Shown: positions 1-19,890 of the stretch, in pieces
Numbering within the stretch: position 1 is the first letter of the stretch
Layout of the letters: each line of letters starts with the position of its first letter
Assembly (NCBI GenBank): GCA_036971615.1
Contig: JAYKKR010000026.1
Location: 1 to 64,000, forward strand
DNA from: Amyloporia xantha
Lineage: Eukaryota; Basidiomycota; Agaricomycetes; Polyporales; Adustoporiaceae
Direction of reading: 5' to 3'
Length of the DNA stretch: 64,000 nucleotides
Notes under the pieces: model-generated
Database searches by the model: none
Seen by the model: the letters and a program-made list of their open reading frames with translations, nothing else
What the model was told of the DNA's origin: nothing
Translations under genes and position numbers: made by a program

Positions 1-126
1 ACAGCACAGCACAACCTAGCACAGCACAACCTAACTTCTTCAACTAACTTCTTCTTCTTGGCTTCAACCTAACTAACTAACCTAACCTAACCTAACCTAA
101 CCTAACCTAACCTAACCTAACCTAAC
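1..126. repeat. (CCTAA)n microsatellite tract
   Basis: The first 60 bases are imperfect ACAGCACAACCTA and CTT-rich repeats. From about 79 to 125 there are roughly nine perfect copies of CCTAA (TTAGG on the other strand). This is the insect-type 5-mer and not the TTAGGG expected at a basidiomycete telomere. Short CCTAACCTAA runs recur at 1572, 16440, 16530, 17100, 17335, 18966 and 20141, so it is more likely an interspersed microsatellite than a chromosome end. Confidence 0.85.
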
Positions 127-800: not shown

Positions 801-1976
801 CTTCAGTGAATGAGGAGACATTGTTGGTGTTTGCGGTATAAATGGGCGTCCCAGACGGCCATCAAACGTTTCGCGGTAGCGGCACACTGGCGGCGCCCGA
901 CGCCACTGCGACGGGCGATCGCGTCGCCGTCTTGGACGTCCATTGAATACCTGTAGGAGAGCTCATCGCGTCGGAATGATCCCTGCACGCGGGTGCGGAC
1001 ACTACTTGTGGATTCTTTTTGGCGTATGCTGCTGGGTTAGAATAGAGTTACTTCTTGCTTATCGCATATGAGCCGGTAAGTCATTGCAGATGTAGTGAAA
1101 TAGTTTAAGCTTCGGGTTTCGGGTTCGTTTTACTTAGTTAGATTATTTAGTTTTAGTGTTTTACTCGGGGCTTTGGCGCAAGCTAGATGGAAACGCTTCA
1201 CTCCCAAATTTGTTTCCCGACCGTGATCGCCGTCCGGGACGGCCGTCGGAGCGCAGTGCGCCGCAAGACTACTGCGGGCCACTCAAGGGGTACATAAGCA
1301 ACGCCTGTGAGGCCACCCATGCAAGCGGACGTCGCGGACGGCCATGGCTGGTTGCAGGCTGTCGAGCTTCGTGGTGACGACTCGAGTAGGTTGTGTTGTG
1401 GTGCTTGTGTTGTGGGGAGTGGCTGGTGGCCGTCGAAGACTGCCATACCCGATACCTTACACGTTGACAACATAATCCTAAACATATTGACTACCGCCCC
1501 GCGCGGCCGTCTGGGACGGCCATTTTGGAGACTGAACCAAAAATTATATTGCCCTACAACCTGAGGACATCCTAACCTAACCTAAAGATTTAGGCCAAAA
1601 GAATATGACAAAACGGACCTGATGGCAGAGGCCGTCGAGACAATCACACTACACTTAACTTCAATTACAACTTCAATTACAGGCTCTATGCGGGTATTCA
1701 TATCGCGATGACTGATGGTTTGGACTACGCGGGCGGCAACAAAATCGGCCGCTGCGTAAGCTTATATTACATTACAAAATGCCAAGTCAGGCTAAACTGA
1801 TGTACAATTCGCGGCAAGGATGAAACACGTAGCACCGTACTTGGATCCATGGGGATGAAACAATGAAACAAGTTTCGTCCCGGTGGCTCCATGATACGCG
1901 GTGTTAGGTTAGGCGAGGATCGGAAACATCTAGCATTTAATACGCCCAGCTGGACGTGCACTCCTCTAAGAATCCA
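801..1976. other. Intergenic stretch with six diverged palindromes
   Basis: No gene is supported. Degenerate copies of the GGCCGTCCWGGACGGCC palindrome lie near 843-861, 925-942, 1226-1248, 1327-1345, 1427-1445 and 1505-1522. A short CCTAACCTAACCTAA run lies at 1571-1585. The 1226 copy runs head to tail into a second half-palindrome (GGACGGCCGTC). Confidence 0.6.
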
Positions 1977-4725
1977 ATGCCTCATTATCCTGACGAGAAT
2001 CTGCCTTCAAAGCAAATCACGCTATCGGAATTCCTACGGCGCGCTGAAGCCTTGCTTGCCCCGGATGTCGATGACAACGACGGGTCTGATTTCGAGCTCC
2101 CTGATTTTGATCTGCTGCCTTTCGTCCAGTTTGTCCTTGCGGGACGCGTTCATGGATCCAATGAACATCGCGTTAACGTCAATGCCAGACAAGGTTTGAC
2201 TTATGTCGAGCGGGAGAGACTTGTTGTCACCCGCGATTACGATTCGGTGATTGGAGTCACCAGAACACTCCCATTTCACAATGCAATCAATATCTATCCG
2301 CTTCCACCGTTTAAAGACACGCACACAAAAGATAACTACCTCACCAGAGGTGTTACCCAGCGTGATGTAAGCTATCCTATTTCCGATATCTAAGCATAAG
2401 ACTAATCTGTGTGTAGGGGACGGTGACCCATGTGCCGCTGCACCGCATACCAAATATCATATTGGCCAAACTCGATACTCGTGCAAAGACAAATGTCTTC
2501 TTTCCGGCTCTGATCCGGCCAGGAGAAGATGCAAAGATTGAAGCAGACCTTTGTGAAAAGTTCTATGATCAAGTCGTCCATCCAGTGCTGAGCAGAGTGG
2601 TGCCAGAGCAAATGGGGCATTGGCCTGCATCATACAAGGAGGCGATGAAGAAATCACGCGATACCACAGGCAAATTCCATTTCCAGACGGTGCCCATTTC
2701 CGCTGACTACCTCACCGCATTCGAAGCACGCCTGCTGGCGGAGATGGACCGCCATCGCGAATTCCGCGGTGCATTCTTCATGCATGAGGTGCGTGGTGTC
2801 AAAGGGGTGACTGCCCATGACCCCTCCGACGTCTCGGACCGCACGGAAAAAATTAACGAAGCCATCCCCTTCGTTTCGGGACTTGAACTAGATTCAACCG
2901 AGTGGTGGGTGGATGTAGGCCTCGAATTGTTCGATCGAGACCATGTCATGCAGTGGCTCACAGTAGGCCACCGACGTATTCTGCAGTACTGCTTGCCCAA
3001 TCTCAGCGAGATCGAAGCAGACAGACTCTGTGACAGCAAAAGTCTATTCACTGTGGACACGGAATGCCAGCTCACTGACTTTGCGGGTTTCCGCTGCACC
3101 CCGGGGAGTAAAGGCCGTGAACGCCATATCAAGTACATCCAGGCCTACAATGTTTCAAAGGAAAACCATTATCAGTTACATGATGGGGTTTATAGCCGCA
3201 AGAGCCCCAAACAGTTGATGCCAACCCACATCGACACCTTGATCAAGCATTGCGAGGCTATCTACGGGCTTTTCACCACTTGTGCAGGGCGCGGAGAAGA
3301 GCAAGGACAAGATGCGGCAATCCGTCTGGAATGCCGCGTGCGCATGGACGTGGCCGCGGCTACAATGACCAAATTTCCCCGCTCGGTATTGAGAAGCACC
3401 ACAGTCACGATGCCATTGGCTAATTGGTGGTATGGCATTTTGCATGGCTTGTCTATGCGGTTTAGCTGATGAACATTGTCAGGATGTTTAAAATGTATCG
3501 GACATACGCTGTCCATCAGGTGTTCGAACATTTACGACGCATGCCCGCCAAAAACAGAATATGGAAACCTTCCTTGGGTCTGGGTGCCATTGGCATATAC
3601 ATGTTGAATGCACTGCTCTACCGTCCTGGAGAAAAGCGAGAGCACTCAGCCTTGGTCCCTGTCTGCGCGTTGCATGTGGCCCGCACACAGACCTCTGAGC
3701 ATTCTGATACAGACGAGGATGAGCTAGAACCAATTGGAGACCGTCGCGGGCTCTATTTCATATCGGACATTCTGGACGATAACGGCACCTGGCGTCTGCC
3801 TGCCACCCACTTTGGGAGCTTGGCCGAGACCGAATTAGCGCGAGCCTACGGTGAAGAAGACATGATGGACTTGCAAGGGGCTTTCAGCGTGAAATCTCAA
3901 CAAGCCATCAAGCGCAAGGCGCATCCCACTCGCACGCATAATCGGCGCCCCCACACAACTTCTTTGTCGGTTTTCCGGGATTCACCAGAGCCCTTGGACT
4001 TGGGATTGGATCAGCGTGGAGTCAAGTTCACAACTGCGAGCGGTATGACAGGAGAAGACGCGCTGGATACTGGAGAATTGGAGGAGGACGACCTCCATGC
4101 CCAACGTGTGGATACCGCCGTCACGAAGATGTGGCACCAGCTCTTCTTGGACATCGTCCAACTGGCGCCCAATCCGAAAGATCGCACTACGCCCTCCTAT
4201 CTGACTCTCAGCAAGAGGGAGCAGGGGGAGGTGAGCGAAGCGCTGTTTCAGTCGTACGATCTGCCGTTTACAAGTGCACGATACCAAGAGCTCGATATCG
4301 GCCAATGGGCGGCGCAGTTCAACTACTATTTCCCTGATCGAGGCTACCAACCCAAGAGCCATGTTCAAAACTTCCCGAATGCCACATATTTCAAACAATG
4401 GAACGCGATGATGAACCGAGTTGCCGATCGCAATCAATTTAAAACGATTCGTAACGAATTGCGGAAGCGGTTCAATACACTCGCATGGATCCCGATGGCC
4501 TCGGGGGATCGGATGTGGGATACCCGCAAAATAACCAACATGAAGGAGCTGGGGACCACGTCGTCTAAAACGGCACCGAAGATAGCCTTGAACCCTTTAA
4601 AGTATACCGATAAGCCAGTGAAGCTACGGGCGGTTAGGGTAGAGGAAGAGGATGAAGAAGACGAGAACGATGAGGAAGAGGAGGACAATCAAGAAGCGGA
4701 GGATAATGACATCTTTGAAGTGTAG
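1977..4725 (+). CDS. Unknown protein, 881 aa, three exons
   Basis: Function unknown. The model is exon 1977-2366, intron 2367-2416 (GTAAGC...GTGTAG), exon 2417-3429, intron 3430-3482 (GTATGG...TGTCAG with a CTGAT branch site) and exon 3483-4725. Both junctions keep one frame open, giving 881 residues. The ATG at 1977 is the first in frame; the open frame runs seven codons further 5' from a GTG. The middle holds a distinctive aromatic motif, STEWWVDVGLELF, followed by VMQWLTVGHRRIL. The C-terminus ends in an acidic Glu/Asp/Asn tract of about 35 residues. No catalytic motif, signal peptide or membrane segment is recognised. The texture recalls multi-copy uncharacterised proteins of Agaricomycetes (from memory, unverified). 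It lies tail to tail with the SNF2 gene in a repeat-rich block, so a mobile-element origin is possible but unproven. Confidence 0.75.
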
Positions 4726-5073
4726 ACAGAAAGTTGGACTAGACTTGAGTCGGGAAATAAAATATGAGGATGTCTTGAAAATTGGTTTCCATATATTCAT
4801 CATCAAGACTCACTCCAATTTGGCCGTCTTGGACTGCCACTGCGCATGGGCTCTCAGAAATTCCCCGCCAGCACGTGTCTCGCTCCGGGCACCATAGGGA
4901 GGAGCACATAGCCGTCCAAGACGAGCGCTGCTGGCTTGCTTATACGGGTACTCGCCGATAGAGGCCTCAAGACAGCTGGTCTTATTGGCGATGCTAAAGT
5001 GGCTCCACGTCGCGGCATTGCGACTGTATCTGACGATTGGCATGGTCCTCATATCCCTGTACATGCTCGAGAT
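4726..5073. other. Spacer with two diverged palindromes
   Basis: No gene seen. A palindrome variant TGGCCGTCTTGGACTGCCA lies at 4821-4839 and a half copy GCCGTCCAAGACG at 4911-4923. Confidence 0.5.
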
Positions 5074-5471
5074 ATGTATGTATTATTATACAACATGCAG
5101 GAGGAGGACGGGATGCAGCCATGTGCCGGAGAGACGAAGTAAGTAATGCAAAGGGATAGAGGGTATATATAAATGGTCCTGAGGAGGCCGGGTTAGAAAT
5201 ATGTATGTATTATTATACAACATGCAGGAGGAGGACGGGATGCAGCCATGTGCCGGAGAGACGAAGTAAGTAATGCAAAGGGATAGAGGGTATATATAAA
5301 TGGTCCTGGGCAGGCCGGGTTAAAGCTATGAATGTATTATTATACAACATGCAGGAGGAGGACGGGATGCAACCATGTGCCGGAGAGACGAAGTAAGTAA
5401 TGCAGAGGGATAGAGGGTATATATAAATGGTCCTGGGCAGGCCGGGTTAAAGCTATGAATGTATTATTATA
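5074..5471 (+). repeat. 127-bp tandem repeat, three copies plus part
   Basis: Units start with ATGTATGTATTATTATAC or ATGAATGTATTATTATAC at 5074, 5201, 5328 and 5455, exactly 127 bp apart; the last is cut short at about 5471. Each unit carries AACATGCAGGAGGAGGACGG, GCCGGAGAGACGAAGTAAG and TATATATAAATGGTCCTG. Copies differ at only a few positions, so the array is young. The same unit occurs inverted at 11735-11942, on the far side of the SNF2 gene. Confidence 0.92.
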
Positions 5472-6012
5472 ACTGCCCATTTGCCCTGATCCTCGAGGAC
5501 GGCCGTCCTGGACGGCCACCACCGTGACTTAACGAAATGCAGTGCGCGCGACGCGACGCAGTGTGATGGCAGTCCGGGACGGCCGTCCGGCGATGCGCGC
5601 TGCCATCAGGATGCCATAGACCCCGGTTACACGAATGGCACTGCGATGGGTTTTCCACAGGCGCAGGGAGTGGCCGTCCAGGACGTCCATTCTGGCATGA
5701 CGTGCTCCTCAGGATCATTCACAATTATCATCAGGGCTGCAGCGTAGATAGCCTAGAACATATCTATCACGCTTATTCAATTGGTTACTCCCACTTGCAA
5801 CGAGTCAAGCGTTCATCAAATACAGCAGTTCAAAACCTGAATATCATTACAAAACTTCATTATAGTCGTTAAAAATCATTACAGCCATTAGAAATCATTA
5901 GTTCATGATGCGAAAACAATAAGTCCGGCATATGCATAGGGAGAATGGTCGAGGAGGGACACCGAGCCAACTTAACGCCTACCACGATTCGACCGTGCGC
6001 CGTATCTCTTAG
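5472..6012. other. Spacer with nested palindromes
   Basis: This is the 3' flank of the SNF2 gene. It contains a perfect 17-bp palindrome at 5501-5517, overlapped on its left by the perfect 12-mer GGACGGCCGTCC; another head-to-tail pair at 5567-5588; and TGGCCGTCCAGGACGTCCA at 5671-5689. Nothing coding is seen from 5700 to 6012. Confidence 0.6.
5501..5517. repeat. Perfect 17-bp palindrome GGCCGTCCTGGACGGCC
   Basis: Exact inverted repeat with a one-base centre. The bases just before it (GGAC) extend it into a second perfect 12-bp palindrome, so two palindromes share an arm. Confidence 0.95.
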
Positions 6013-9000
6013 TCACCTTTCGATTATCAAGTCGGGCAACCTGGTGTCATCAGGCTCAATTGCCGCGCTTGCGCTGACCCTCGGCTTGCGCTGCTTCTTT
6101 GGAGGCGAATTGGACGGTCCGCGCTTGGTGCCTTTCTTGGGCTGGCTGGATTCAGCATCTAAGGATTATATGGGTCGCAGGTGAGATAGCAGACTGGTAC
6201 ATAAGATGAATGACTCACTGTCGTCATCTCCCGAAGTTGGCGGTTCAGTGAGTGGGGATGAGGCGCGGGACCCCATCACGGTATCGTTATCAGGCTGGCT
6301 GGGAACCGGCTCCGGTGGGAAATTGCTCTCGTTGGCCTCCGATGGCAGTAGAGGAGCATCTGCCAGGGATTGGCTCGCTTCTCACCCAGGCGATTGGCTC
6401 GCTTCTCACCCGATCCTCGCATCATGTTCGCGATCATGTCAAGCGCATCCTGGTCCTGGGAAATCTTCCTCTGGCAAGACAGAGGGGTCTCGAGGCGGGG
6501 ATTGCCGCGCGGGTAGTCGAGCGCGCCGCTACTCTCCGCCGGAACCAACTGCAGATCCAGGAAGCGATTGTTCTTCCTCCTCGGTTTCGGGCGCAGCGGG
6601 GGTTCTGGTGAGGGCGAAGGTTCGGCCAGGTCCGAGCTTTCCTTCTCCTTCTCAGGGGCGTGCTCAGGCTGGCTGGCTTTTGCCCGCCCCTTCTCGCCGC
6701 GAGAACTGCTCGAAGGGGCCGGTGTCGCTGTCTTCTCGCGGTCAGAAGTGGGCGGAGGGGACGATGCCGCTCGCCCCTCAGCAATTGCAGCCTTCTTGGC
6801 CTGGTATTGCTTCGCCTTCTCGATGGCCGCAAGGTCCTTTCGTTGCTTACGCTTGGTGGCATTGGCTTCCTTTTGGGCAGTCTTTTCCGCCTCTGCCTCC
6901 ACGTCGATCGCATCGTCCGTAATCACCCCTGCCGGCTGCTTCCCTTTCCGCTTGCGTGATTTTGAGGCCTTGGCAGGGCCCGGCTGCGTGTCATCGTTTT
7001 CGACAACATCGTTGTCTTCGTCGTCGCTTCCACCCATATCGTCAGAGCGGAACGCATTGCCTGTAAACGATGTAGAATAAAGAAATCAGCAAGAATGTCT
7101 GTGTGAAGACGAACTGAGACGCACGCATTTTCTTGCTCGCGCCTATGAATGCTTCGTGCATCGTAGCCTTGTCGAAAGAAATGTTATTAAGGAAGACGTC
7201 CGGCGTGTTCTCCGCGATAAACCTGTAGACGTGAACGCGCTTCTTCTGGGGATAGCGCCACAACCTGCCGATAAGTTGGGCATCCTCCTGCGCTGACCAG
7301 AGAGTATCCTGTACAGGCAATTAGGTTGTCGAAATACTCCAAATTGAAAATAACCCACCATCATCACGAGAATGTTCGCCCGAGCGAGATTGAGCCCGAC
7401 CATACCGACACCGGAGAGGAGCATAACTCGGCAGCCATCGGGCTTCTTGAAGTTCTCGATAGTGGTCATTCTCTTGGCCATAGGGACGCTCCCATTGACC
7501 GTTTCATACTTGATGTGGTACAGGTCCAAGAACTGTCAAATCCTCAGCATGTCAACAATTAAAGAGAAGCTCGCAGCGTACTGTAGTGATGACATCCAGG
7601 TTGGACGGGAAGGCGACGAAGACAATTATCTTGTCGCTGGGAGCGTCCTCATCGCGCGGATCGTACTCAAGCGAGCTGTGTGTAAGCTTGTTGCGCCCTG
7701 GCGTCTCAACCATCAGCGGGGCTAAAGCGTCTTCGGCGAGATGATACGACAAGACTTCGATCAACATCGAGATCTTCGTCGAGATCGAGTCACCAATGTC
7801 TTGGAGGGTCTTGGGCTCATCGAACTCCTCATCCTCATCCACTGCTCCGCAGAAGGACCAATGTGTGAGGCAACGCCGGAGAGCAAGATAGAAATTCTGT
7901 GAAGTTTCAGTTAGTGCAGGTTAAACAAAATCACTGCAAGTCGCCGTCCTCGACGTCCATCGCTCGCAGTGAAGAAACAAAATCTCCGCAGCTAAATCAG
8001 GTGGCGATGGCAAGGAATAGGACGTCCCGGACTGCCACCGCTGGTGCTCCTGAACGAACTGCCCAAATGGGCGAAATTGGGAGGCGTGAGCGGTGGCCGT
8101 CCAAGACGGCCAATCCGGGCCACGGCAGCTGCGCTCTTAGTTTTACGCACGCACGCCCGTGGCCGTCCTGGACGGCCATCGTCGTCCGCACATCCATGCC
8201 TTGCGTACTTACCTTTCCATACACATGGACGTTTCCATCTCCAGTCTCACTTTCACCCGCAATCTTGTCGAGGTACTTGTGCTCCTTCTCTGTCAGAGTC
8301 AGCAGGAGATTGTGCTCCTGGTACATCTCGAGACCGGAGATGGGGTTCCGTCGTAGTCGAGGGACTGCACCGTACGTCGGATAACGCTGGGGCGAACTTG
8401 TCGCGCAGCTCCTTCATCGCCTTCCTAACCTCTGTCGTGTGCGCACTCTTTTCAATTGCTCGAGACGACTCGCCATGTGCGAGCTTTTGTAGCGCTTCTC
8501 GATTGCCCTTCGCGTCTGCCTTGTCCCGCCTGCGTGCGGATGCCAACGTTGCCTCGACACTTTTCACATCATGAAAGTGCTTTTGCTCGCACCCTGGGAC
8601 TTTGATCACCCTCCCCAAGTTATACATATCCTTCACAGAATCATCAAATAATATGAATACGAAGATAACAGATAATAGACTTACCATTGGCCGAGTCAGA
8701 ACGGGCGTGGCAGTCATCGCGATGCACGCCTGTGAACGGTCGCCCAGAGCAATCCCGGCACGGAAGGTCTTGTTCATGTTTTTCAGCGCGTGCGCCTCAT
8801 CAATCACCATCAGCCCAAAGTCGTGGGCGAAGACGGTCTTGGGGAGAATCGCCTCCACTTTCCTGCGTGGGACAGGCGCTGCCCATTTCTCTTGGGGCAG
8901 ACGCATCGTGCTGTCCAAATCCGCTGTCACTGCCTAGATAGTTCGAAACGTTATTTACATGTGGATCATCATGACTCGAAGGTTTACTCACCGAAAAGGT

Positions 9001-10780
9001 CGCCACTATGATCCGCCGATGCAGCGGCTGTTGAGACTTGGCGAAAGCGTCGCTCCAGAAAGTGGACCTGGTGGCAAGGCTGCCCACATACGGGAAAACA
9101 TCGAAGGTGCCGCGCTTGAGGTATCGATGCATCTCCGCAATGACCTGATTGACGAGGTTCGCGGGGACAATGAAAATAGTCGGCAGGTCGGGCAGGTTAC
9201 CGCTCTCCGTTCTCAGATTGCCTGCAAGAGCAGTCAGCGTGGCCGTCCAGGACGGCCAGATGGGACTCACCGAATACTCCCGGAAACGTCCCGTGTTGCT
9301 CCCAGTATTCGTGAAACCACGAGCGCACCGCGATCGTACCCACAGCCTGCATTGTTTTCCCGACACCAACCTCGTCCATCTGCAGAGTTGGCTCGCCCTC
9401 CAGTGATCGACGTACCATCTTAACGATGCCGACGAATTGATGCCATCTCGGAGAAAGGGGGACGCCGTGCTCCCGGATATACTCCTCTCCTTCCGGCGTC
9501 CACGCATCATGCTGCCCAGTCGGATCGTCTTTCTCATTGAAGAACGGGAGTCGCCCATCATGGAGGCCCAATGCTTCATGAAGCCGCGCGCTATCCCAAT
9601 TCTGGTATTCCTCCACTCCGGATGACCACTCATCGGTAGGTAAAGGGTCGTCAAAGTCGAGATCGAGCGTGGAGTCGTCCTGCTCGTGGATAAGGTTCAG
9701 CGTCTCCGCGACTTCATGCGCCAACGCATCGACCTGGTTTTTCGTCGCCAGGAATCGTAGAGCGTCCCGGATTACCTTGGGCAAGCCTGCATCACATTAA
9801 GAACAGAATGGATTTAAGTGATTGCAATGATTATTTATTCAGTTATTCAGTTACTTACGCGTGGAGTCGCCCTGTCCATTGCCTTTGCCCATCGCGTCCA
9901 ACATGGCTTTTAGCATCTCCTCCTGTTTCGCCAATGTCTCTAACGCGGGGTCGTCTCCGAAGAAACGGGCCTCCTTCACTAGCGCCGCGCACTTGGCAAT
10001 TAGATTCTTCACATCGTCACGCGTGGCATTGCCATTGTCCGCGTTCCAGAAAGCTTGTCATAAAAGTGCAATCAGTTATTGAATTTGCACTAGAAGCACA
10101 CTTCTTACCAGCCCACGCAGCATTCGAAGCCTCCTGCTTTGTTTCAAACGAACGCGCGTGTCGATCTACTCCCTTCTTCCACCGATTCCATACAGTTGGA
10201 ATGATATCGGTGACGAACTTTTCTGCCTTTCGGTTGGGCAACACGACCATGCCATTCTCTACCAGGGCGTCATCTCCGAAGATCTTCTCTACAGGCCCGT
10301 TGATGTAATGGGGCCATTGAGAGTGGAGCATATCTGGCATCTAAAGCATTGCTTAGAATATGTAAATCAATCCGTGACAATGTTGATACCCACCTTGAAA
10401 CCGCTGTGCTGGATCTTCATGACATCCACCAGGCGAAAACCAGCGGTGGCGAACCCCTCATCGATCGCTTTGTTCATCTCCCACTTGGTCCACATTGCGC
10501 CGCTCCATTGAAACCACGCCTGGCGACCTACCTTGTTCTGGTCGTCCTTTCGCGCATCCTGGACAAAAGTTACCCGCTTCTCTGCGCTCTTTGCGCGGAA
10601 GTTTGCGACAAAGGTGTCTACCGCATCTAACTGGGCCTCGCTCCACTCAGGGGGTGTGTTGCCAGGCATCCAAGGGGGGCCAGTCATGCCAGTACGAGCT
10701 CGCCAAACAGGCCAGTCCCAGATGTCCGGTAATTCAAGAAATAAGGTGAGCAATGCGGCGGCAACGCTGATAGAGGGCAT
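6013..10780 (-). CDS. SNF2-type helicase/ATPase, 12 exons, three frame breaks
   Basis: Probable DNA-dependent ATPase of the SNF2 family. Exons (minus strand): 10780-10394, 10340-10109, 10053-9859, 9786-9271, 9221-8992, 8933-8685, 8630-8213, 7896-7582, 7532-7359, 7308-7125, 7060-6219, 6158-6013. Exon phases agree throughout once three one-base deletions are allowed. Visible motifs: Walker A DEVGVGKTMQ with upstream RWHQ (exon 4), DEAH box MVIDEAHALKN and ATPVLTRP (exon 6), and C-terminal helicase motifs VGLNLARANILVM and QLIGRLWRYPQKKRVHVYR (exons 9-10). The tail is Lys/Glu/Pro-rich and basic, probably disordered and nuclear. Two deletions in exon 7 (near 8390 and 8350) and one in exon 11 (near 6370, beside an in-frame 24-bp duplication at 6368-6415) break the frame as given. 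Two introns carry palindromes (9222-9270, 7897-8212). It is either a decaying copy or an assembly with uncorrected indels. Confidence 0.82.
7897..8212 (-). repeat. 316-nt intron filled with four palindromes
   Basis: This intron of the SNF2 gene is five to six times longer than its neighbours (49-64 nt). It holds an intact TGGCCGTCCTGGACGGCCA at 8160-8178, a near-intact copy at 8094-8112, and two diverged copies at 8021-8040 and 7942-7958. Donor GTAAGT and acceptor CACAG both join codon-phase-0 exons. Confidence 0.85.
9222..9270 (-). repeat. 49-nt intron containing a perfect 19-bp palindrome
   Basis: The intron is GTGAGT...TTGCAG with the perfect 19-mer at 9240-9258 as its centre. Without it only 30 nt would remain, below the usual size of a fungal spliceosomal intron. 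Confidence 0.88.
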
Positions 10781-11390
10781 TATGCAGCAGAGCGAGATTG
10801 TGTTGACTTGGAACGGGGGTCGGGTGAAAATTGGCGAAAACTGGCAAGAGCAGTTACTCGAGTGGCTTCTTATAATACTTTCCACACGTGGACGCCTCAC
10901 GAGGAAAAATGGCGGTCTTAGACGGCCACGCACATCACGCCGATGGGGAAGCTTAGCGGAGACGATATTTGCGCTCGGCATTCGCCTCGTGTTTGATTAT
11001 CGCTCCCCTCCATGAATCAAGCTGCTTCCATTTCCATAGGAAAGGTGCGGGTTGTCATCTGCGGGTTGGCCGTCCAGGACGTCCACGCTCCGCCTGATCT
11101 GTTACGCGCGGATCCCGCTCAGCTTGCGGGATTCATAGATCCATATACCCGTCCAAATATGGCTGCTCCTCGCCCATTCCGGGTCCCATGAGACCTACCG
11201 ATTACGAGTCAGGGGTCTCGTTTGCTGCAAGCGGGAGATGGCCGTCCAGGACGGCCATGCGCGCGGCTCCTGCCTGTCAGCAGGGGTTGCCGCGTGGCCG
11301 ATGGCAGCGAGGCGCTAGCCACATGCGGTAGGCAACAATCTTAGATCATGATCTGATGATGCCTGCTGTGAGTCACTAACCACATGGGAT
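10781..11390. other. Upstream region of SNF2 gene with palindromes
   Basis: No gene seen. Palindrome copies: 10910-10928 (one-mismatch arms), 11067-11085 (TGGCCGTCCAGGACGTCCA) and a perfect 19-mer at 11239-11257. They lie 130-480 bp upstream of the SNF2 start codon. Confidence 0.6.
11239..11257. repeat. Perfect 19-bp palindrome TGGCCGTCCAGGACGGCCA
   Basis: Exact copy of the consensus, in non-coding sequence 459 bp upstream of the SNF2 start codon. Confidence 0.95.
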
Positions 11391-11700
11391 AAGTGACGAT
11401 CTCAGATCATCTCAAGTCGAAGTTGGTCCCCTACGTCACGGCCGTCCGGGACGTTCTTCTTCCCTCATCTCCACCCATGGTGGCAATCATCCGGCGTCTC
11501 GGAACAGTGTCCATATGCGGTAACCGACAATCTTCGATCTCCCGAAGTCTGAGTTGGTATCGCGCATCACGGCCGTCCGGGACGGTCACTCTTCTTCTTC
11601 ACCCATCGTGGATATTCTCCGGCTCTGAGATAACTATGCATATGCGGTAAGTGACAATCTTAGATCTCCCGAAGTCTAAACTGGTAACTGCGCATCATGC
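11320..11700. repeat. Imperfect tandem repeats, about 130 bp
   Basis: Three diverged units share ATGCGGTAAGTGACAATCT-like and GATCTCCCGAAGTCT-like segments. Two of them include a palindrome derivative (11440-11453 and the better preserved GGCCGTCCGGGACGGTC at 11571-11587). Confidence 0.65.
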
Positions 11701-11734
11701 CAGAACGGCTATTGCTTCGGGCTCACATCCCATT

Positions 11735-12190
11735 GCATCTCGTCCTCCTGCATGTTGTATAATAATACATACATATTTCTAACCCGGCCTCCTCAGGACC
11801 ATTTATATATACCCTCTATCCCTTTGCATTACTTACTTCGTCTCTCCGGCACATGGTTGCATCCCGTCCTCCTCCTGCATGTTGTATAATAATACATTCA
11901 TAGCTTTAACCCGGCCTCCTCAGGACCATTTATATATACCCTTGCTGTGTCTAGCTCTGATTCATCCGAAACAGACACCGTGCGCGTTTCCGACGGTGCC
12001 ATCTCTATGCCTGTTACGCCGGCATCGCTATACGAACATGACAATAGTCAGGGATCAATCCATCCTCCTTCTCCGTCGAAAATTCGACAGTCTGCACCTC
12101 TACCTCCACTTCCGCCACTTCCTCCCCACTTCTCTGTCCCCGCCGTACATATCCCATCGCATTACTTACTTCGTCTCTACGGCACATTGG
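11735..12190 (-). repeat. Inverted copies of the 127-bp repeat, one split by an insert
   Basis: One full unit and most of another match the 5074-5471 array on the opposite strand with very few differences. The outer unit stops at ATATATACCC (11942) and resumes at TCGCATTACTTACTTCGTC (12157). About 210 bp of unrelated sequence lies between the two halves. Confidence 0.88.
11943..12156 (+). pseudogene. Coding-like insert inside a 127-bp repeat unit
   Basis: The insert is one open frame on the plus strand with no ATG at its start. It reads as a Ser/Thr/Pro-rich segment (SSSDSSETDTVRVSDG, then SIHPPSPSKIRQ and a PLPPLPPLPP run). The composition resembles a disordered part of a fungal regulatory protein and is unlike the flanking repeat. 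It is best read as a captured gene fragment; the source gene is not in the window. Confidence 0.45.
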
Positions 12191-12437
12191 TAGTCATTCA
12201 CTTCATCGTCTTTTCTTTCTCATGCTGCATGTCGGGAATTAAATTCGCACACAACACTCGGTGTCTATTGACTTTGCTCGGACACAATATTGGATGTCAT
12301 TGAGTTTACAAACCAAGCTGATACATTCATGTATATATAGAGAGGCAATATTATATTATGGCCATTTCCCATGAGCATGAATTTAGTTAGTTCAAGGATA
12401 TATGCCAGTGAACAATCGTCACTTACAGCAAAGGGGC

Positions 12438-13021
12438 TCACAGATGAACCATCGAGTCCGCCTCTCCTGCTCGTATGAGCGCAGCGGCCAGTTCAATCAT
12501 CGCTTTGAATTCCCTGAGGACGCAATGCATCACAACGCCCGGGCGATGCGGCCGTACGGTGCTGATAAGTAGCCTGGCCTGTGGAACTAAGATCAGAACT
12601 TGCATGCGGTGTTTGTCTGGATTTCATCACTTACTGCGTGCCACAGCACTCTCGTGGCCCATTGATGCCAATGATTCGGAGAATATACTTGTGGACCCAG
12701 CGCTGGGCCCCGCTCACGTTCCTCCCGCAATCCTGCGTATGCTTCGCGCGCAATCTCGAACATTCGCGCGATATACTGATCGTTGGCGTTGGCGGTCATG
12801 GGGGTTGGAGGGGATTTTCTATCTCTCCTATGGACGGTCCTGGCACTCTTATGAATATTTTGCGCGCTCTGGCTTACGTTGCAGAAGCATTCGCGTAGGA
12901 GACTCAATACCCTGAAGTCTTCTCCAATGACTACCCGATGACAGGACGTGCGAATAGAACACCCATCCAGGACCTCAAATCTTCTAATCTGGTACCTTCT
13001 ATCTGGGTCTAATCGAGTCAC
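12438..13021 (-). CDS. Small unknown gene, trio copy A
   Basis: Function unknown. The 3' exon ends at TGA (12438-12440) and joins, through a GTAAGT...CCACAG intron, an exon with the motif PQVYSPNHWHQWATRVLWHA. The C-terminal part reads REFKAMIELAAALIRAGEAD. A likely ATG is at 12799 (MTANANDQ); an upstream exon reaching 13021, joined through a GTAAGC donor near 12889, is possible. Two related copies follow (13427-13878 and 14482-14956), with the intron at the same place in the protein. No known domain is recognised. Confidence 0.5.
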
Positions 13022-13426
13022 CTGTTTGATGCGCCTTATTTTACGTTATTTTTAGGCGTATCAAACACAAGGTTAAGGTTGGAAATATATCTTTTCAAGG
13101 CATTTATTGATGTGCATGTTTTGCTGGAAGGGAACTGGTCGAGGAAGTGATATGCACGTGACTATAGGATCCCTCGCAGAGGGCGCCGTCCAGGACGGCC
13201 ACGCCACCTGCTGGACGTTTGTGCCTAGCATCAGATTCCCATTCCGGACAAGCAGAGCGGCCGTCCAGGACGGCGACTCTGCGCGCCCTCCGCATACGCT
13301 TAACGAAACAAAAGTGTTCGTATGTACAGATTCATATGAAAATATCTGCCGACTGTTTACAGTATTTCTAAAGGAACAACCCATGCATAATAAGACATCA
13401 ATTAATTAACGTTCATTTATTTTCTA
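13022..13426. other. Spacer with two palindromes
   Basis: No gene. Palindrome copies at 13182-13200 and 13259-13276, each with one arm slightly altered. Confidence 0.6.
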
Positions 13427-13878
13427 CTACTCACCGGACACTAGGGTCATCCCTTCCTCCTCGGCGGCCTCGCACTCAAACAAGAGTATGTCTACTGCAT
13501 CTTGGAGCACGATATCCTGGTACCCGCCTGCAGCCCACTCTAAGTCGCCATATTCGCTCCGACGTATTTGCCTTTTCAGCTCGTGCAATGTAACCTATTC
13601 GTACTGTTAGCGTCGTTTCAAACCCTTGCATATGTTTCCGTACTTACTTTGTAATACACAACTCGAAGTGCCCAGTGCACCCAGTATTTCCGAGAGTACA
13701 CTTTGGGTGCCTCCGCCGGCCTCTCCGTATATGCATGTTCCAGAGCATGGGCATACATGAGCACTTTATGAAGTAACCGCACTGTCGCCCACGACGTTTG
13801 CCCGTACCATGACATCCTGAACAACAGGGCAAGGGAGTTTGCATTCCGCCCACGTATAGCACTGTCTTTTAAGCACAA
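13427..13878 (-). CDS. Small unknown gene, trio copy B
   Basis: Best preserved copy of the trio. The 5' exon (to 13648) contains PKVYSRKYWVHWALRVVYYK. The intron 13595-13647 is GTAAGT...GAATAG. The 3' exon encodes about 55 residues, beginning VTLHELKRQIRRSEYGDLEW and ending MTLVSGE before TAG at 13427-13429. The shared pattern with copies A and C is P-x-V-(Y/L)-S-x(3)-W-x-H-W-A-x-(R/Q)-V, then the intron, then an acidic helical C-terminus. The start codon is uncertain; the first candidate is upstream of 13878. Function unknown. Confidence 0.55.
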
Positions 13879-14481
13879 TTGTTGTCTTCCTACTTATGTC
13901 CAAGCTCTACCCGCTGACGCGCCTCGTGTGATGCGCAATACCTAATCGATAACACAAGCGATCCTACTTCTCACCGCTTAGCCATGTTCCGTCCACTCCG
14001 TCAAATGACAATCTCCTAGTGAGCGCATTACGTTGTGATTACATAGTTAAATATTAATACAACATATATGATCATCTCGTTTATTTGTGATCTAGTCATC
14101 GCATCAAGCGCATCAATGTTCCTATACACGTTTACATTTCAAATAATCATAAGTATGTCATGATCTACAACTTGTGCCATCCCACGGGACTCAGTCAATG
14201 CTCACAGGGCACTTCACGGCACTGGCCGTCCAGGACTGCCATGCCTGCCACGGGACTCTTGTACTCCGCCCCATTCACACTGGCCGTCCAGGACGGCCAC
14301 AACAGTGTAGCGCTTTCTCGCACGTGCCCTCATGCATGTCGACTCATTTCCTGCATATAAAGCGTACACCCAAAAACTGTGCATCTCACATCTAGACACG
14401 ATCTACGCGCACACTGAATCCATCCATTATTGTCTATCAGTATAGTTCGGTTCCACTATTCTCTTTGCTACTCACCGGGTA
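13879..14481. other. Spacer with two palindromes
   Basis: No gene. TGGCCGTCCAGGACTGCCA at 14223-14241 and a perfect 19-mer at 14281-14299. Open frames here merely read through the palindromes. Confidence 0.6.
14281..14299. repeat. Perfect 19-bp palindrome TGGCCGTCCAGGACGGCCA
   Basis: Exact copy of the consensus, 40 bp from a diverged copy. No target-site duplication is visible around it. Confidence 0.95.
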
Positions 14482-14956
14482 CTACGGTGTCCACAGTATT
14501 AGCCCTCTCGCCTCTTCAAACATGTCATGAAAAACCTCCAGCCCAGCCCCCACGCGAAGCTCTCGCGCATACACCTCACTCATCAACCCTCCGACCGTGA
14601 GCTGTTCAAGTCATCAATATATTTATCCCCCCATGTAGTAACCCAACTTCTCTACTCACCTCGGTTTCTAATACCTGCAACGCCCAGTGTGTCCACACTG
14701 CCCGAGACAATACCCGCGGCATTACCGCTGGCCTACGCATGAACAATAGCCCCAATTGGTAACATTGACCACGTAGGTCCAAGATCAGCAACCTCGAAAC
14801 TGCGTCGAGATGGTCAGGCATATCAATCACGAATGGCGGAACAGTGTTTTCGGCCATTCTGACTGGGATGGGTGGTTTCCGAATCCCAATGACATTGCCC
14901 ACTCTTATATGTATCTCGTCTCTCTCCCTTACGTTACGTGACAACCCTAACCGCAC
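14482..14956 (-). CDS. Small unknown gene, trio copy C, probably broken
   Basis: Related to copies A and B: PRVLSRAVWTHWALQVLETE, then an intron (GTGAGT...GAACAG) at the same protein position, then LTVGGLMSEVYARELRVGAG. As written the frame ends at TAG (14482-14484). The neighbouring frame ends VVPGE-stop, matching LVSGE-stop of copy B, so a one-base loss in a GGG run near 14505 probably shifted the frame. Function unknown. Confidence 0.45.
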
Positions 14957-15200
14957 ACACTTTCAATTCAATTCATGAGCTTACCGCCGCATGTCAATTT
15001 TAAACTCAATTCCTACGCGAGGTGCAACGCCGCATAGAAGATCCATCTGCGATCAAAGAATCTGTCAACAATCTCATTGCTATCCACCCGATCTTTTGCT
15101 CCTCGCTTAAATTTCATATCTAAGGTTAGGGTTTAATATTATTCTCTTTATAGGAAACCACTGTATGCAGCACATACCCCATATTTCATGGACAGTGGGT
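14957..15200. other. Spacer, no gene seen
   Basis: AT-leaning sequence with one telomere-like GGTTAGGGTTT at about 15125-15135. Nothing else recognisable. Confidence 0.5.
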
Positions 15201-15220
15201 GAGGAGCTCTCCGCCTCTCA

Positions 15221-15885
15221 TGGCCGTCCTGGAAGGCCATATCTCTCTCTACAGTAATATAGACACTTTTACCGGAGATTTCTCTTACCGCAGAGTCTGT
15301 TCCTAATAAGGTGTGCACATGTTTGGAATGCCGTTGCAGTGATAGACGTCCAGGACGTCCACCTCCGGTGCTACGCATACATAAGGTCTGTCTAATACAA
15401 CATATGGCCTACCTTTCTCATGTCCTGTAGCAAATATGGACGTCCAGGACGCCCCCTTCTCGCGCTATGCATTGATGAGGTCCGTCTAATCCAATATACG
15501 GCCTACTTTTTTATCATTCTGTAGCACATGTCGACGTCCTGGACGTCCACCTCCGATGCTATGCATGCATAAGGTCTGTCTAATGCAACATAAGGCCTAC
15601 CGTTCTCGCGTCCTGTAGCAAATATGGACGTCCTGGACGTCCCCTGCTTGCGCTATGCATTTACAAGGGCTGTCGATTCCAATATAGGGACTACTTCTCT
15701 ATTGTCCTGTAGCACATGTAGGCGTCCTGGACGCCCGCCTCCGATGCTATGTATATACCAGGTTTGTCTAAGCCAATGTACGGACTACGTGTTTGTATTC
15801 TCTAGACAATATGGACGTCCTGGACTGCCATCTCCACCGCTGCACCCATTGTGCTAAGTAGCGCAGACGGACGTCCAGGACGGCT
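15221..15885. repeat. Palindrome-bearing tandem array, unit about 94 bp
   Basis: Palindromes lie at 15221, 15344, 15437, 15531, 15625, 15719, 15812 and 15868, mostly 91-95 bp apart. The sequence between them is also repeated (GCTATGCATNNATAAGGTCTG, TAATNCAANATANGGCCTAC, TCCTGTAGCA). The arms vary: GGACGTCCTGGACGTCC at 15626-15642 and GGCGTCCTGGACGCC at 15721-15735 are each perfectly self-complementary. Confidence 0.88.
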
Positions 15886-16560
15886 CCTGCTGCGTTGGCC
15901 CCCTCCGCAGGCCTAGGGACGTGCTATGCGCCAGCCTATGCACTGGCCACACCAGGCGAGCCCACTAGGCGCTCACCTAGGAGCGCACCAGGTGCCGACC
16001 TAGGCAATAAGCACCTCTCTAGGTGCGCGCTAGGCGCCGACCTAGGCATTAAGCGCCTGCCTAGGATTCCGGTCCTAGCTCAGCCTAGGAGGTCTCATAA
16101 CCTAAGGCGCATAACTGGGCCTATGCCTCTCAGGGGAGGTGCCACTTCGGTGGAGTTGCCTCTGATGCATGGGGGGAGGGTACTACGACTACTCTTATGG
16201 ATGAACTGACCCTGTGCGGCAGTCCTGCGACCGTTGTATAACTGATAATTTCATGTGCTGTAGTTGGCAGCCCGCGATTCGAATGGTAGTTCCTCACGAG
16301 CTCTCACTTGGTGTCTTTCAGCCATTTGGGAAGGGGGGAGATCAGCAACTCTTTCGCAACCTCACTTGCAATATCTTGTAAGTACTACGGTTTCTGTGTA
16401 CACCGCAGACGGTATTAACCGAGGCGTTTTACCTAATTTAACCTAACCAGAACCTAACCTAACCGTATGTACATTCCTTAATCGGAAATACAATATTGCT
16501 GACTAATTGATGTCATATCAAAATAGTAACCTAACCGAACCTAACCTAACGGACCTAACG
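15886..16560. repeat. CCTAGG/GGCGCC-rich short repeats and CCTAA runs
   Basis: From 15905 to 16115 CCTAGG, CTAGGCGC and related 6-8 mers recur about a dozen times. A shorter relative lies at 18860-18965, where both end in AGGTCTCATAACCTAA. CCTAACC runs lie at 16434-16460 and 16528-16558. The open frame 15895-16209 only reads through this repeat. Confidence 0.7.
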
Positions 16561-17112
16561 GTCCGGGCCAGGTGCGTAGTCCTTAATGCAATTAGCGCCG
16601 GGGTAGCGTGACTCAGTCACGTGACATGGGGCGTCTAATATACGCGCTCGATGACGTCATGTTCTAGGCCTGCCTAGGCCATGACGTCAGGGGTGGCACA
16701 TGTGATTGCATGAATCACATGCACCGGCTCGGCTACTTCGGTGACTCTTCGGACCGGCGGAACGCCGACGGAATGACGTCACTCCTAATAATAGGAGACA
16801 GGTCTAGACAATGACATCATAGTCCGAGTCCACCCGATAGCGGGATATTGCTATTGGCTCGGTCTCGTCGGCAACTATTAATAAGATATTATGCCATCGT
16901 ACGATTCTCAAAGTCGTACGATGCGAGGTATTTCTCGCTTACCAAGATAGAGGGCCTGATGAGTCTATAAAAGACGAAATGGGTCGGTGTTGGATCCCCA
17001 GCACCTCATTGCCTAGCTCTGTCTCCCGCTCCTCAGCAACATCCTCCGCTAAGGTCGCCTTCGGCTCCCATAGCTCCGTCGTCGCTTCGTCGCTCCACCA
17101 CCTAACCTAACC
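16561..17112 (+). repeat. R repeat, full copy 1 (about 550 bp)
   Basis: Begins CCGGGCCAGGTGCGTAGTCC and ends CTCCACCACCTAACCTAACC. It is a chain of hairpins: GTGACTCAGTCAC, ATGACGTCAT...TAGGCCTGCCTAGGCCATGACGTCA, GTGATTGCATGAATCAC, CTCCTAATAATAGGAG and CATCGTACGA-loop-TCGTACGATG. TATAAAAG at 16975-16982 lies about 130 bp before the end. It has no open reading frame and is probably a non-autonomous repeat. Confidence 0.82.
16975..16982 (+). promoter_or_regulatory. TATA-like box inside R repeat
   Basis: GAGTCTATAAAAGACG in copy 1; the same site reads CTATATAAG in copies near 17200 and 19380. Conservation of a TATA-like site in every copy suggests a promoter, but no transcript is known. Confidence 0.35.
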
Positions 17113-17115
17113 CTA

Positions 17116-17343
17116 AGATATTATGCCGTCGTACAATCTTCAAAGTCGTACGATGCGAGGTATTTCTCGCTTGACTAAGCAAGGGCCTGATGAGTCTATA
17201 TAAGACGAAATGGGTCGGTGTTGGATCCCCAGCACCTCATTGCCCAGCTCTGTCCCCCGCTCCTCAGCAACTTCCTTCGATAAGGTCGCCTTCGGCTCCC
17301 ATATCTCAGTCGTCGCTTCGTCGCTCCACCACCTAACCTAACC
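17116..17343 (+). repeat. R repeat, 5'-truncated copy 2
   Basis: Follows copy 1 directly in tandem, starting at AGATATTATGCCGTCGTAC and ending CACCTAACCTAACC. Confidence 0.85.
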
Positions 17344-17393
17344 TTCCATGATTGCTACTTCATTGTTTTTATATAAATTAAATGTGCGTGTTC

Positions 17394-17968
17394 ATGGAAT
17401 AGCGTCCTGGAACGCTATTCCATCATTTCCACTGGGTTGTTTTTATATAAACCAAAGATGCGTATTTATGGAATAGCGTTCAAGGACGCTATTCCACAGC
17501 TTGACTCGTATTTATTATTGCCCTCCAGGGACACTACCCATGGAATAGCGTCCCAGGACGCTATTCCGCGACTTCATCATATCTTCTTTGTCATCAATCA
17601 AAGACAAATTATCCCTGAATAGGGTTCCTGTTCCTTGGGTTTTGCTGTCTTTATGTAAATTAGTGGTGCGTGTTCATGGAATAGCGTCCTTGAACGCTAT
17701 TCCATGGTTTCCACTCATCTTTGTTATCACCACTCAATGGTTCATAACCATGGAATAGCGTCCGTGAACGCTATTCCACCATTTCATCATGTCTTTGTCT
17801 TCGCCTGTCAATGCCATTACATCACGGAATAACGTTCAAGGACGCTATTCCGTGGTTTCTGCTCTCTTTGCCTATGTACATTTAAGGTCCGCAACTTTTT
17901 GTCACTTGTCAATTCATGTCAGTTGAGGGTGCATATTTATGGAATAGCGTTTCTGGTCGCTATTCCAT
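17394..17968. repeat. Array of seven AT-armed palindromes
   Basis: Hairpins of 30-32 bp, consensus ATGGAATAGCGTCC, a short centre, then the reverse complement, at 17394, 17468, 17540, 17676, 17750, 17823 and 17939. Intervening DNA is loosely repeated (TTTTTATATAAA, GTGCGTGTTC). The 17823 copy has CACGGAATA matched by TATTCCGTG, so both arms changed together. The core CGTCCTGGACG is shared with the GC-rich palindromes. Confidence 0.92.
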
Positions 17969-18049
17969 GGTTCACCACTTAAGATCCCTAGGAAAACCCT
18001 AGATTTACCCCAACCCATTTAGAAAAACTCCCTATAATGACCGGAGTTT

Positions 18050-18820
18050 TTTGATACTGTAACAGACATGGCCATCCTGGAAGGCCATATTCTCTTTCTG
18101 AAACAAAATCATACTTTGACTGGAGTTTTCTGACACTGTAGCACACATGGCCTTCCTGGAAGGCCATATTCTCTCTGACAATATATATACTTTGACCGAA
18201 GTTTTTTTATACTGCAGCTTGAATATCCATATAGGGAAAGTATATTGCTATATAAGGAGTGCACATTTTTTGCATGCTATGGCACAGATGGACGTCCAGG
18301 ACGGCCATGCTCTGTGCACTGTCTGACTCTGTATTATGTCTATATATATGGACTGAGATGTGCATGTTCTCTGATAGTTATGATGGAAATGGACTTCCAG
18401 GACGGCCATCTCTACTACTGCGCTTCAATACTATGTAGCAGAGATGGACGTCCTGGACGTCCACCGCTGGTACAGTATCTATATAAGTAGTGTCTGTTTC
18501 TATATATGGTGTGCGCGTTTTTTGTGTTCTATAGCAGAGATGGACGTCCAGGACTGCCATCTGCACCACTGTGCTCCAATACTGAGCAGTGGAGATGGAC
18601 ATCCAGGACGGCTGTCTGCTCCATGAGATGCTGGTACAGAGCAGCAGAAACAGACGTCCTAGACGGCTGCCTCTGCTGCTATGCCTATATCAGGAGTGTC
18701 TGTTACTATATAAGGACACCGCGTTTTTGCATTATATAGCGGAGATGGACGTCCTGGACGTCCGCCTGTGCTACACAGTACAACAGACATGCCAGCAGAG
18801 GTGGACGTCCAGGACGGCCG
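18050..18820. repeat. Palindrome-bearing array 2
   Basis: Ten palindromes at 18069, 18148, 18289, 18390, 18445, 18541, 18596, 18651, 18746 and 18802. They are embedded in loosely repeated T-rich sequence (CTATATAAGGAGTGC, TTTTTGCAT-TATAGCAGAG). The 18148 copy TGGCCTTCCTGGAAGGCCA and the 18445 copy TGGACGTCCTGGACGTCCA are perfect 19-bp palindromes with different arms. Confidence 0.9.
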
Positions 18821-18978
18821 CTGCTGTGTTGCACCTCTCCCTGCTCTCATGTACTACGTGCCTAGGACTGTGCTAGGTGCTGGTCTACGTAGTGCACACC
18901 AGCCTAGGAGTGCACTAGGCGCCAGCCTAGGATTTCGATCCTAGCTGATCCTAGCAGGTCTCATAACCTAACCTAACC

Positions 18979-19526
18979 GTCCGGGCCAGGTGCGTAGTCC
19001 TTAATGCAATTAGCGCCGGGGTAGCGTGACTTTGTCACGTGACATGGGGCGTCTAATATACGCGCTCGATGACGTCATGTTCTAGGCCCGCCTGGGCCAT
19101 GACGTCAGGGGTGGCACATGTGATTGCATGAATCACATGCACCGGCTCGGCTACTTCGGTGTTTTCTCGGAGCGGCGGAACGCCGACGGAAGGAAGACTT
19201 GCCTTAACGGGCAACAGATCTAGGCAATGACATCATAGTCCGATGCCACCCGAATAGCGAGTTTACGCTATTGGCTCGGACTCCTCGGCGTGCATTAATA
19301 GGATATTATGCCGTCGTACCACTTTCAAAGTCGTACGATGCGAGGTAATTCTCGCTTGACTAAGCAAGGGCCTGATGAGTCTATATAAGACGAAATGGGT
19401 CGGTGTTGTAAACTCAGCACCTCATTGCCCAGCTCTGTCCCCCGCTCCTCAGCAACTTCCCTCGCAGAAACTCGCTTCGCTCGTATCTGCTCAGTCGTCG
19501 CTTCGTCGCTCCACCACCTAACCCTA
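18979..19526 (+). repeat. R repeat, full copy 3
   Basis: Nearly the same as copy 1 over most of its length and ends CCACCACCTAACCC. At the site where copy 1 has the CTCCTAATAATAGGAG hairpin, this copy has TTGCCTTAACGGGCAA, a different sequence that is still a hairpin. Confidence 0.85.
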
Positions 19527-19563
19527 AGTTTTTTGCACTTTGACACTACACACATTTACCCCG

Positions 19564-19750
19564 TCGATCGCGCTTCCGTTCAATCGTGCGGATGCGCGTT
19601 CGACAGGGTATATGTGTATAGTACTCGAGTGCCTCGAACGCGCATCCGCACGAGCAAATGGAAGCGCGTTCGTACATATACTTCACGTGTGTACATTCAG
19701 TGCTCCGTTCGCGCTTCAGCACGCTCTATCCGAAGCGCGTTCTTTTCTCT
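19564..19750. repeat. Large imperfect inverted repeat
   Basis: Arms of about 40 bp (19564-19603 and 19634-19672) centred on GTGCGGATGCGCGTTCGA and its complement TCGAACGCGCATCCGCAC, around a 30-bp loop. A smaller pair TTCGCGCTTC/GAAGCGCGTT follows at about 19708-19742. No gene. Confidence 0.75.
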
Positions 19751-19890
19751 CAACTCATATATTTACGGTATAGTACCCTACTGTACAGGGTTTCGCTACG
19801 TAAATGTACCTCCCCACTCCTAATCGGACCTACCCAAACCCAGAAGAGAGGTAAGTGTACCCCAACCCAGTTACGAAAACCCTATATAAT

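Follow-up and report, generated by a model that had tools for sequence, protein, structure and literature searches.

Short, GC-rich palindromes present in many copies are known from fungal mitochondria, where the GC clusters and PstI palindromes are regarded as mobile, and sites for Tbf1 and Reb1 cluster at the chromosome ends of yeast and affect silencing there. In Plasmodium falciparum the SPE2 motif, two imperfect 6-bp repeats 4 bp apart that are read by two AP2 domains of PfSIP2, is described as a single motif for all chromosome ends; it has hundreds of copies, which form arrays upstream of a subtelomeric gene family and are few in the chromosome interior (PMC2829057). RecQ helicases near fungal telomeres, and a telomere repeat given as TTAGGG for Ganoderma, are described in a further report (PMC10817607). 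Here we analyse a family of short palindromes at a contig end of the fungus Amyloporia xantha. The window, i.e. the whole stretch analysed, covers the leading 64 kb of contig C19 (G000:C19 from base 1) in a genome of 46.8 Mb and 60 contigs. The palindromes are symmetric, non-random words that are conserved in position, stand at recurrent stations and differ between gene blocks. Judging from these sequence patterns they are probably operators, docking sites in cis for a sequence-specific protein that binds DNA as a dimer, kept in place by selection.

A locally confined family of nuclear palindromes

The exact 19-mers noted at 8160, 9240, 11239 and 14281 in the initial annotation are all present, as is the exact 17-mer at 5501. 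Within three mismatches of the type A word GGCCGTCCWGGACGGCC the 64 kb contain 41 sites (starts 844 to 18803, span 844-18819), five of which match exactly while nine, 15 and 12 carry one, two and three mismatches, respectively. The same stretch holds three extra sites with four mismatches (4910, 5488, which overlaps 5501, and 18652), and no site within three mismatches is found in the remaining 45 kb of the window. A dinucleotide Markov control (19 kb, 100 runs) yielded 0.04 sites at three mismatches and none at two or fewer, and as it yielded 0.48 and 2.5 sites at four and five mismatches, relatives at these distances need to be counted cautiously. The genome-wide count proposed earlier as a check gave 125 sites with up to two mismatches compared to 4 for the reversed pattern, and the tighter word GGMCGTCCWGGACGKCC has 39 exact matches compared to 0 in the control. 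Chance or GC composition as the source of the words is ruled out by the shuffled and reversed-pattern controls. Also confirmed are lone copies with unrelated flanks, intronic copies (about 7893-8216 and 9222-9270) and the arrays at 15344-15885 and 18070-18819. The view of a nuclear, locally confined family is upheld: the contig begins with telomere-type repeats and carries genes with GT-AG introns.

Much of the genome-wide count arises because whole subtelomeric blocks were duplicated recently. Contigs C5 and C55 carry near-identical copies (about 99.4%) of the window block, and 145 sites in eight contigs reduce to 69 distinct ones when compared by 41-bp context, 61 of them with up to three mismatches. 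From the genome-wide set of 125 (up to two mismatches) 112 sites could be placed, and for 93 of these the distance to a contig end is no more than 35 kb. The type A sites are located mainly in subtelomeric gene blocks and in non-coding DNA, namely upstream of genes, in particular introns and in intergenic arrays; none with up to four mismatches was seen in modelled exons. The earlier statement that no larger element explains the copies holds in that no single repeat unit accounts for the sites, but these do form part of gene blocks that were duplicated among subtelomeres. Between palindromes, distances of about 53, 74 and 94 bp are near whole helical turns, whereas 25 and 55-59 bp are not.

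The stations relative to the genes recur. The window has three small orphan genes, s1, s2 and s3, and the distance from the gene start to the type A sites upstream is 393 and 468 bp for s1, 417 and 475 bp for s2 and 373 bp and more for s3. The corresponding distances are 464 bp for gene 1 and 467 bp for a helicase gene, which carries the type A word in two of its introns as well. All five gene starts thus have a type A site at 300-560 bp, where a circular shift expects 1.5 (p 0.013).

Conservation of the sites in recent and old block copies

The recent copy on C5 is about 99.4% identical to window positions 5196-14213, with 22 substitutions, none of them within a palindrome, and all 15 type A sites of this interval (up to three mismatches) are common to both. 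The two copies also differ by small indels, many of a single base, so that some frameshifts in the assembly may be sequencing errors. An older block copy is found on C42, internal to the contig (143-153 kb of 230 kb). Its helicase shows 57% protein identity to that of the window (about 220 residues compared) and about 68% DNA identity. Eleven palindromes of the window can be paired with collinear ones in this copy. Over the outer 20 bp of the flanks (beyond 5 bp on each side) these pairs are 39% identical, compared to 27-28% for mismatched pairing (p 0.001-0.002), which indicates that collinear pairs are the same ancestral places. Identity inside versus outside the palindromes is 0.86 versus 0.45 in the intergenic segment 5472-5786, for which a shuffled partner gives a baseline of 0.39 (range 0.31-0.45, 20 runs), 0.82 versus 0.42 in the longer helicase intron, and 0.94 versus 0.71 in the short intron with its single site. 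Of the five segments compared with C42, two show a strong palindrome footprint, two a suggestive one and one none at all. A similar picture is obtained from 14 array units, chosen by match to the word, with 0.84 in the palindrome and 0.40-0.44 in the spacer.

No clean empty site was found in either the recent (C5) or the old (C42) paralogs of the same genome, and the minimal mobile palindrome put forward in the initial annotation finds no support in them. Upstream of the helicase the window sites 11068, 11240, 11440 and 11571 are without a clear C42 partner, C42 has sites of its own at 9632 and 9880, and the flanks are too diverged for an empty-site reading. The one additional palindrome of the C42 helicase intron falls within a tandemly duplicated stretch of about 77 bp, as read by eye from the alignment. 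No target-site duplication was apparent by eye, judged without a statistic, in the 25-bp flanks of the listed window copies. An apparent C42 breakpoint within a site (window 15230) looks like another element inserted into the palindrome. The element, starting TAGTGATG, breaks a type A palindrome from C42:153467 (L007:3467) onward, its start recurs about 0.5 kb further on, and it looks hAT-like from its terminal sequence.

Words B and C and the genes of their blocks

Two further words were found in the genome. Type B, GGAATAKCG-N8-CGMTATTCC, is present in 164 places in a stricter pattern with one mismatch allowed, compared to 0 in the control. Type C, TGCGGCAT-N17-TGCCGCA, occurs in 75 places, many of them in duplicated blocks, compared to 2 for the forward and 0 for the reverse control. 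At C6:914-923 kb six pairs of type C heptamers stand exactly 25 bp apart (one more at 28 bp), and their spacers differ. Five of six gene starts there have a type C pair 300-560 bp upstream, where 1.2 are expected (p 0.021). Type B sites reach far from the contig start (C10:104-131 kb, C17:3-20 kb), suggesting that subtelomere-like blocks may exceed 100 kb.

Copies of the small genes accompany all three words. A search with s2 returned at least 51 exon-level matches in thirteen contigs (E up to 10; 50 candidates scored). We examined the upstream DNA of 28 small-gene copies in the retrieved sequence, many of which duplicate each other so that about ten are distinct. A type A or B word is found within 560 bp in 18 of them (one of these, C55:5950, is only approximately placed) and a type C word at up to the same distance in six; the closest word is 689-904 bp away in three, and C42:152892 is without a word because its site is interrupted by the apparent inserted element. 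In exon 1 (49 columns) s1 shares 61% identity with the gene at 917597 of C6, which belongs to a type C block, and 28% with s2 and s3. The upstream region of s1 carries type A and that of the C6 gene type C, and the two regions share just a 26-bp BLAST match. The word follows the block and not the small-gene lineage.

A long gene is common to the B and C blocks, with a GGQHR motif that is invariant in five members. Its intron following W-G-x-[KR]-[LV]-Y-D holds five B1 words on C17, four of them 51-53 bp apart, and the same five are present in a near-copy of the gene on C23, where the frame breaks just before the intron in the assembly. The homologous intron at C57:44.6 kb contains five B-type sites about 53 bp apart under relaxed matching, one of which fits the stricter expression. 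On C6 and in two C15 copies it carries GCGGCAT-N16-ATGCCGC pairs, in which the outermost bases of the longer form are changed. One homologous intron thus holds different palindromic words. Five B-type sites are also found in a second C57 intron (48.7-49.0 kb). The B1 and B2 long-gene proteins are 72% identical to each other and both 24-29% identical to the C clade. Among the copies examined, the B and C words go with the long-gene clade, apparently including the B1 and B2 sub-words. In the A block no GGQHR long gene was detected, and there the helicase introns carry the word.

The features of the window are collected in Table 1. The family of gene 1 is uncharacterised and comprises Agaricomycete members from Fibroporia, Suillus, Hydnomerulius, Pleurotus, Panaeolus and Pholiota; the gene has one match in this genome. 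Its nearest protein relative is Fibroporia radiculosa FIBRA_08584 (41%), that of the helicase is from Amylocystis lapponica (38%), and Suillus is among the next relatives; the two nearest relatives are from polypores. The window exons of the helicase alone stay below the Pfam cut-offs, while full-length relatives carry PF00176 and PF00271.

Table 1. Features of the window, by position.
Position	Feature	Strand	Remark
66..126	Telomere-type repeat (CCTAA)n, contig start	+	Tandem Repeats Finder
844..1521	Six type A palindromes: 844, 925, 1228, 1327, 1428, 1505	.	Upstream of gene 1
1977..4725	Gene 1, three exons	+	Own model; function-unassigned family
4822..5688	Type A palindromes 4822, 4910, 5501, 5568, 5672	.	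5/5 with collinear C42 partners
about 6276..10780	SNF2-type helicase gene, many exons	-	C-terminal end not fixed; relatives with PF00176 + PF00271
7893..8216	Helicase intron, four type A palindromes: 7942, 8020, 8095, 8161	-	Five in the C42 intron
9222..9270	49-nt helicase intron, mostly one exact 19-bp palindrome (9240-9258)	-	C42 copy with one change
10911..11587	Five type A palindromes: 10911, 11068, 11240, 11440, 11571	.	Upstream of helicase
12441..12799	Small orphan gene s1, two exons	-	Own model
13184..13275	Type A pair 13184, 13259	.	
13430..13815	Small orphan gene s2, two exons	-	
14224..14298	Type A pair 14224, 14282	.	
14485..14857	Small orphan gene s3, two exons	-	Array beyond nearest upstream type A site
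15222..15885	Type A site 15222, array 15344, 15438, 15532, 15626, 15720, 15813, then 15869	.	Array at 93-94 bp spacing
17394..17967	Seven type B palindromes GGAATAGCG...CGCTATTCC in array	.	Up to 3 mismatches
18070..18819	Type A array 18070, 18149, 18290, 18391, 18446, 18542, 18597, 18652, 18747, 18803	.	18652 with 4 mismatches

Other repeats mark the same contig end. The telomere-type repeat is the 5-mer (TTAGG)n with some variants and is found at window positions 66-126 and at the ends of C1, C5, C6, C10, C25, C35 and C55. A subtelomeric repeat edged by CCTAACC tracts occupies 16104-17110, 17114-17343 and 18971-19523, has a palindrome of its own, CATGTGATTGCATGAATCACATG, and is also present at loci of C6, C10, C22, C55 and C57 (about 83-99% identical). 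A repeat of about 364 bp with many inverted repeats follows at 19528-19890, with further loci on C3, C5, C6, C17 and C57, and a 127-bp tandem repeat at 5070-5471 has an inverted copy beyond the helicase (11711-11942).

Operator function, alternatives and known systems

As operators, each word would be read by its own homodimer with one subunit per half-site, the half-sites being GGACGKCC for A, GRACGMTATTCC for B and ATGCCGC for C. Among the 61 distinct type A sites no position pair co-varies between the arms beyond shuffled columns (all p > 0.1), in a test whose power is low at near-invariant positions and which is carried mostly by positions 1, 3 and 8 and their partners. Such arms fit the half-sites of a dimer and not a hairpin. 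Occupancy along a block may set a common chromatin or expression state of its genes, which by analogy with SPE2 and PfSIP2 would most likely be silencing of chromosome-end genes. Reader and word could change together, making blocks independently addressable. A more far-reaching version, which we regard as doubtful, has each block as an autonomous unit resembling plasmid incompatibility: a block-encoded reader would recognize only its own word, occupy it upstream and in the introns of each gene and set the state of that gene, and new blocks would arise as reader and word change together. The question bears on how fast-evolving chromosome-end gene families stay under one control, and on how dozens of sites can evolve in concert with the protein that binds them; this one genome has three or more sets of palindromic words at comparable stations.

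As the word of the B and C blocks travels with the clade of the long GGQHR gene, this gene would be the first candidate for such a reader. The GGQHR motif suggested a ParB/sulfiredoxin-like protein. This assignment was rejected, with no support from Pfam, NCBIfam or PDB sequences; a scan of the genome for PF02195 gave nothing at E <= 1, and a ParB-type reader encoded near the sites, as in a ParB/parS-like partition system, is therefore not indicated. The small orphan protein was dismissed as reader, since the word does not follow its lineage. A database search with one member found no relative (one candidate, none scored), and four members matched no Pfam family. HTH_30 on window positions 12593-13045 reached E 0.012, below the cut-off, and was not seen in the spliced small genes.

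Several observations weigh against operators. For the upstream stations of types A and C the p-values are modest and the range of 300-560 bp was picked post hoc, after inspection of the distances. The gene starts and introns are our own models. Collinear C42 pairs are hardly more alike over their 17 bp than randomly paired sites (85% compared to 82%, p 0.053), the palindromes are no better kept than their surroundings in the 3' region 4735-5070 (0.79 inside versus 0.80 outside), and upstream of the helicase, with one site, the values are 0.71 versus 0.50. Positions G2, T6, C7, G11 and A12 are constant in the 61 distinct sites, with positions 3 and 15 free (mostly C/A and G/T), but this invariance is inflated by the choice of sites for similarity to the word. 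Nineteen of the 112 placed sites lie deeper than 35 kb inside their contigs (15 in the C42 block, two on C17 at 67 kb, one each on C12 and C7), and 13 of the 125 genome-wide sites were not located in the retrieved DNA. The C12 site is part of a 315-bp fragment 87% identical to the upstream region of the C42 helicase. An exact 17-mer at C7:101460-101476 is interior, 101 kb from the start of C7, and shows no similarity to other retrieved loci; about 1.2 kb away a match with three mismatches lies in what, from a motif, looks like phosphatase-like coding sequence. AlphaFold2 models of the candidate proteins were too weak to use, with a mean predicted local distance difference test score (pLDDT) of 47 for the long gene and of 68 for one small orphan member (ten rows, four helices, predicted template modelling score 0.45).

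Insertion or copying of a 17-21 bp palindrome, mobile or propagated by conversion, into the non-coding DNA of a block with no larger vehicle would account for many copies in unrelated flanks and for their absence from modelled exons. The conversion part of the initial proposal may hold in one respect, as each block has a uniform word despite the mixed descent of its small genes, which indicates that the word was rewritten or spread inside the block; candidate routes to this state are gene conversion, stepwise co-evolution with a changing reader, and spread from arrays. We nevertheless consider such insertion or copying unlikely, given that the paralog comparisons above showed no clean empty site, that no target duplication was apparent by eye, that matched sites have ancestral flanks in common, that one gain sits in the 77-bp tandem duplication and that other words occupy similar stations. 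Functionless palindromes carried passively as a satellite by subtelomeric DNA amplified through segmental and tandem duplication would be consistent with the near-identical blocks of C5, C55 and C19 and with arrays of 94-bp and 55-bp units. This is very improbable, since contexts differ among the 61 distinct sites, palindromes are kept where two flanking stretches are near the unrelated baseline, array units conserve the palindrome above the spacer, and upstream stations recur.

A structural role, i.e. a DNA cruciform, an RNA hairpin or a site of recombination or replication arrest, is suggested by the perfect inverted symmetry of the best copies, by an RNA hairpin with a 3-nt loop that could form, and by type B sub-words that are symmetric in all but two of about 50 listed places. 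Type A arms are, however, without compensatory change, and for their independent variation in the 61 distinct sites we reject a hairpin for this word; type C consists of two short arms with a free spacer of fixed length. A hot spot of telomere addition or recombination was likewise rejected: where telomere and block meet in C5 and C55 (window 4260 and 8847), the closest palindrome is at a distance of about 390 bp or more. We hold a structural role to be highly unlikely and favour docking sites for a dimeric protein.

No title or abstract among the literature matches listed, in a search with most subscription journals outside its coverage, describes these words, which, as far as seen, are apparently not in print. 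Unlike the mitochondrial GC clusters and PstI palindromes, the sites described here are nuclear, subtelomeric and conserved in position, and the paralog comparisons within this one genome revealed no insertion polymorphism of the mitochondrial type with clean empty sites. They resemble Tbf1 and Reb1 sites in their clustering at chromosome ends but differ in motif and in being block-specific words. In the block copies of C19, C5 and C55 a helicase adjoins the telomere, as for telomere-linked helicases of fungi, but it looks SNF2-type and RecQ is not indicated; the telomere repeat unit is (TTAGG)n here, in contrast to TTAGGG in Ganoderma (PMC10817607). With SPE2 and PfSIP2 the palindromes have in common bipartite sites concentrated at chromosome ends and arrays upstream of a subtelomeric gene family, while at least three palindromic words, one per block and also in introns, set them apart (PMC2829057). 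The SPE2 bipartite motif itself was not found, the words being inverted repeats of other sequence. With an SPE2-like distribution and a different motif, the palindromes may thus work like SPE2 without being members of that system.

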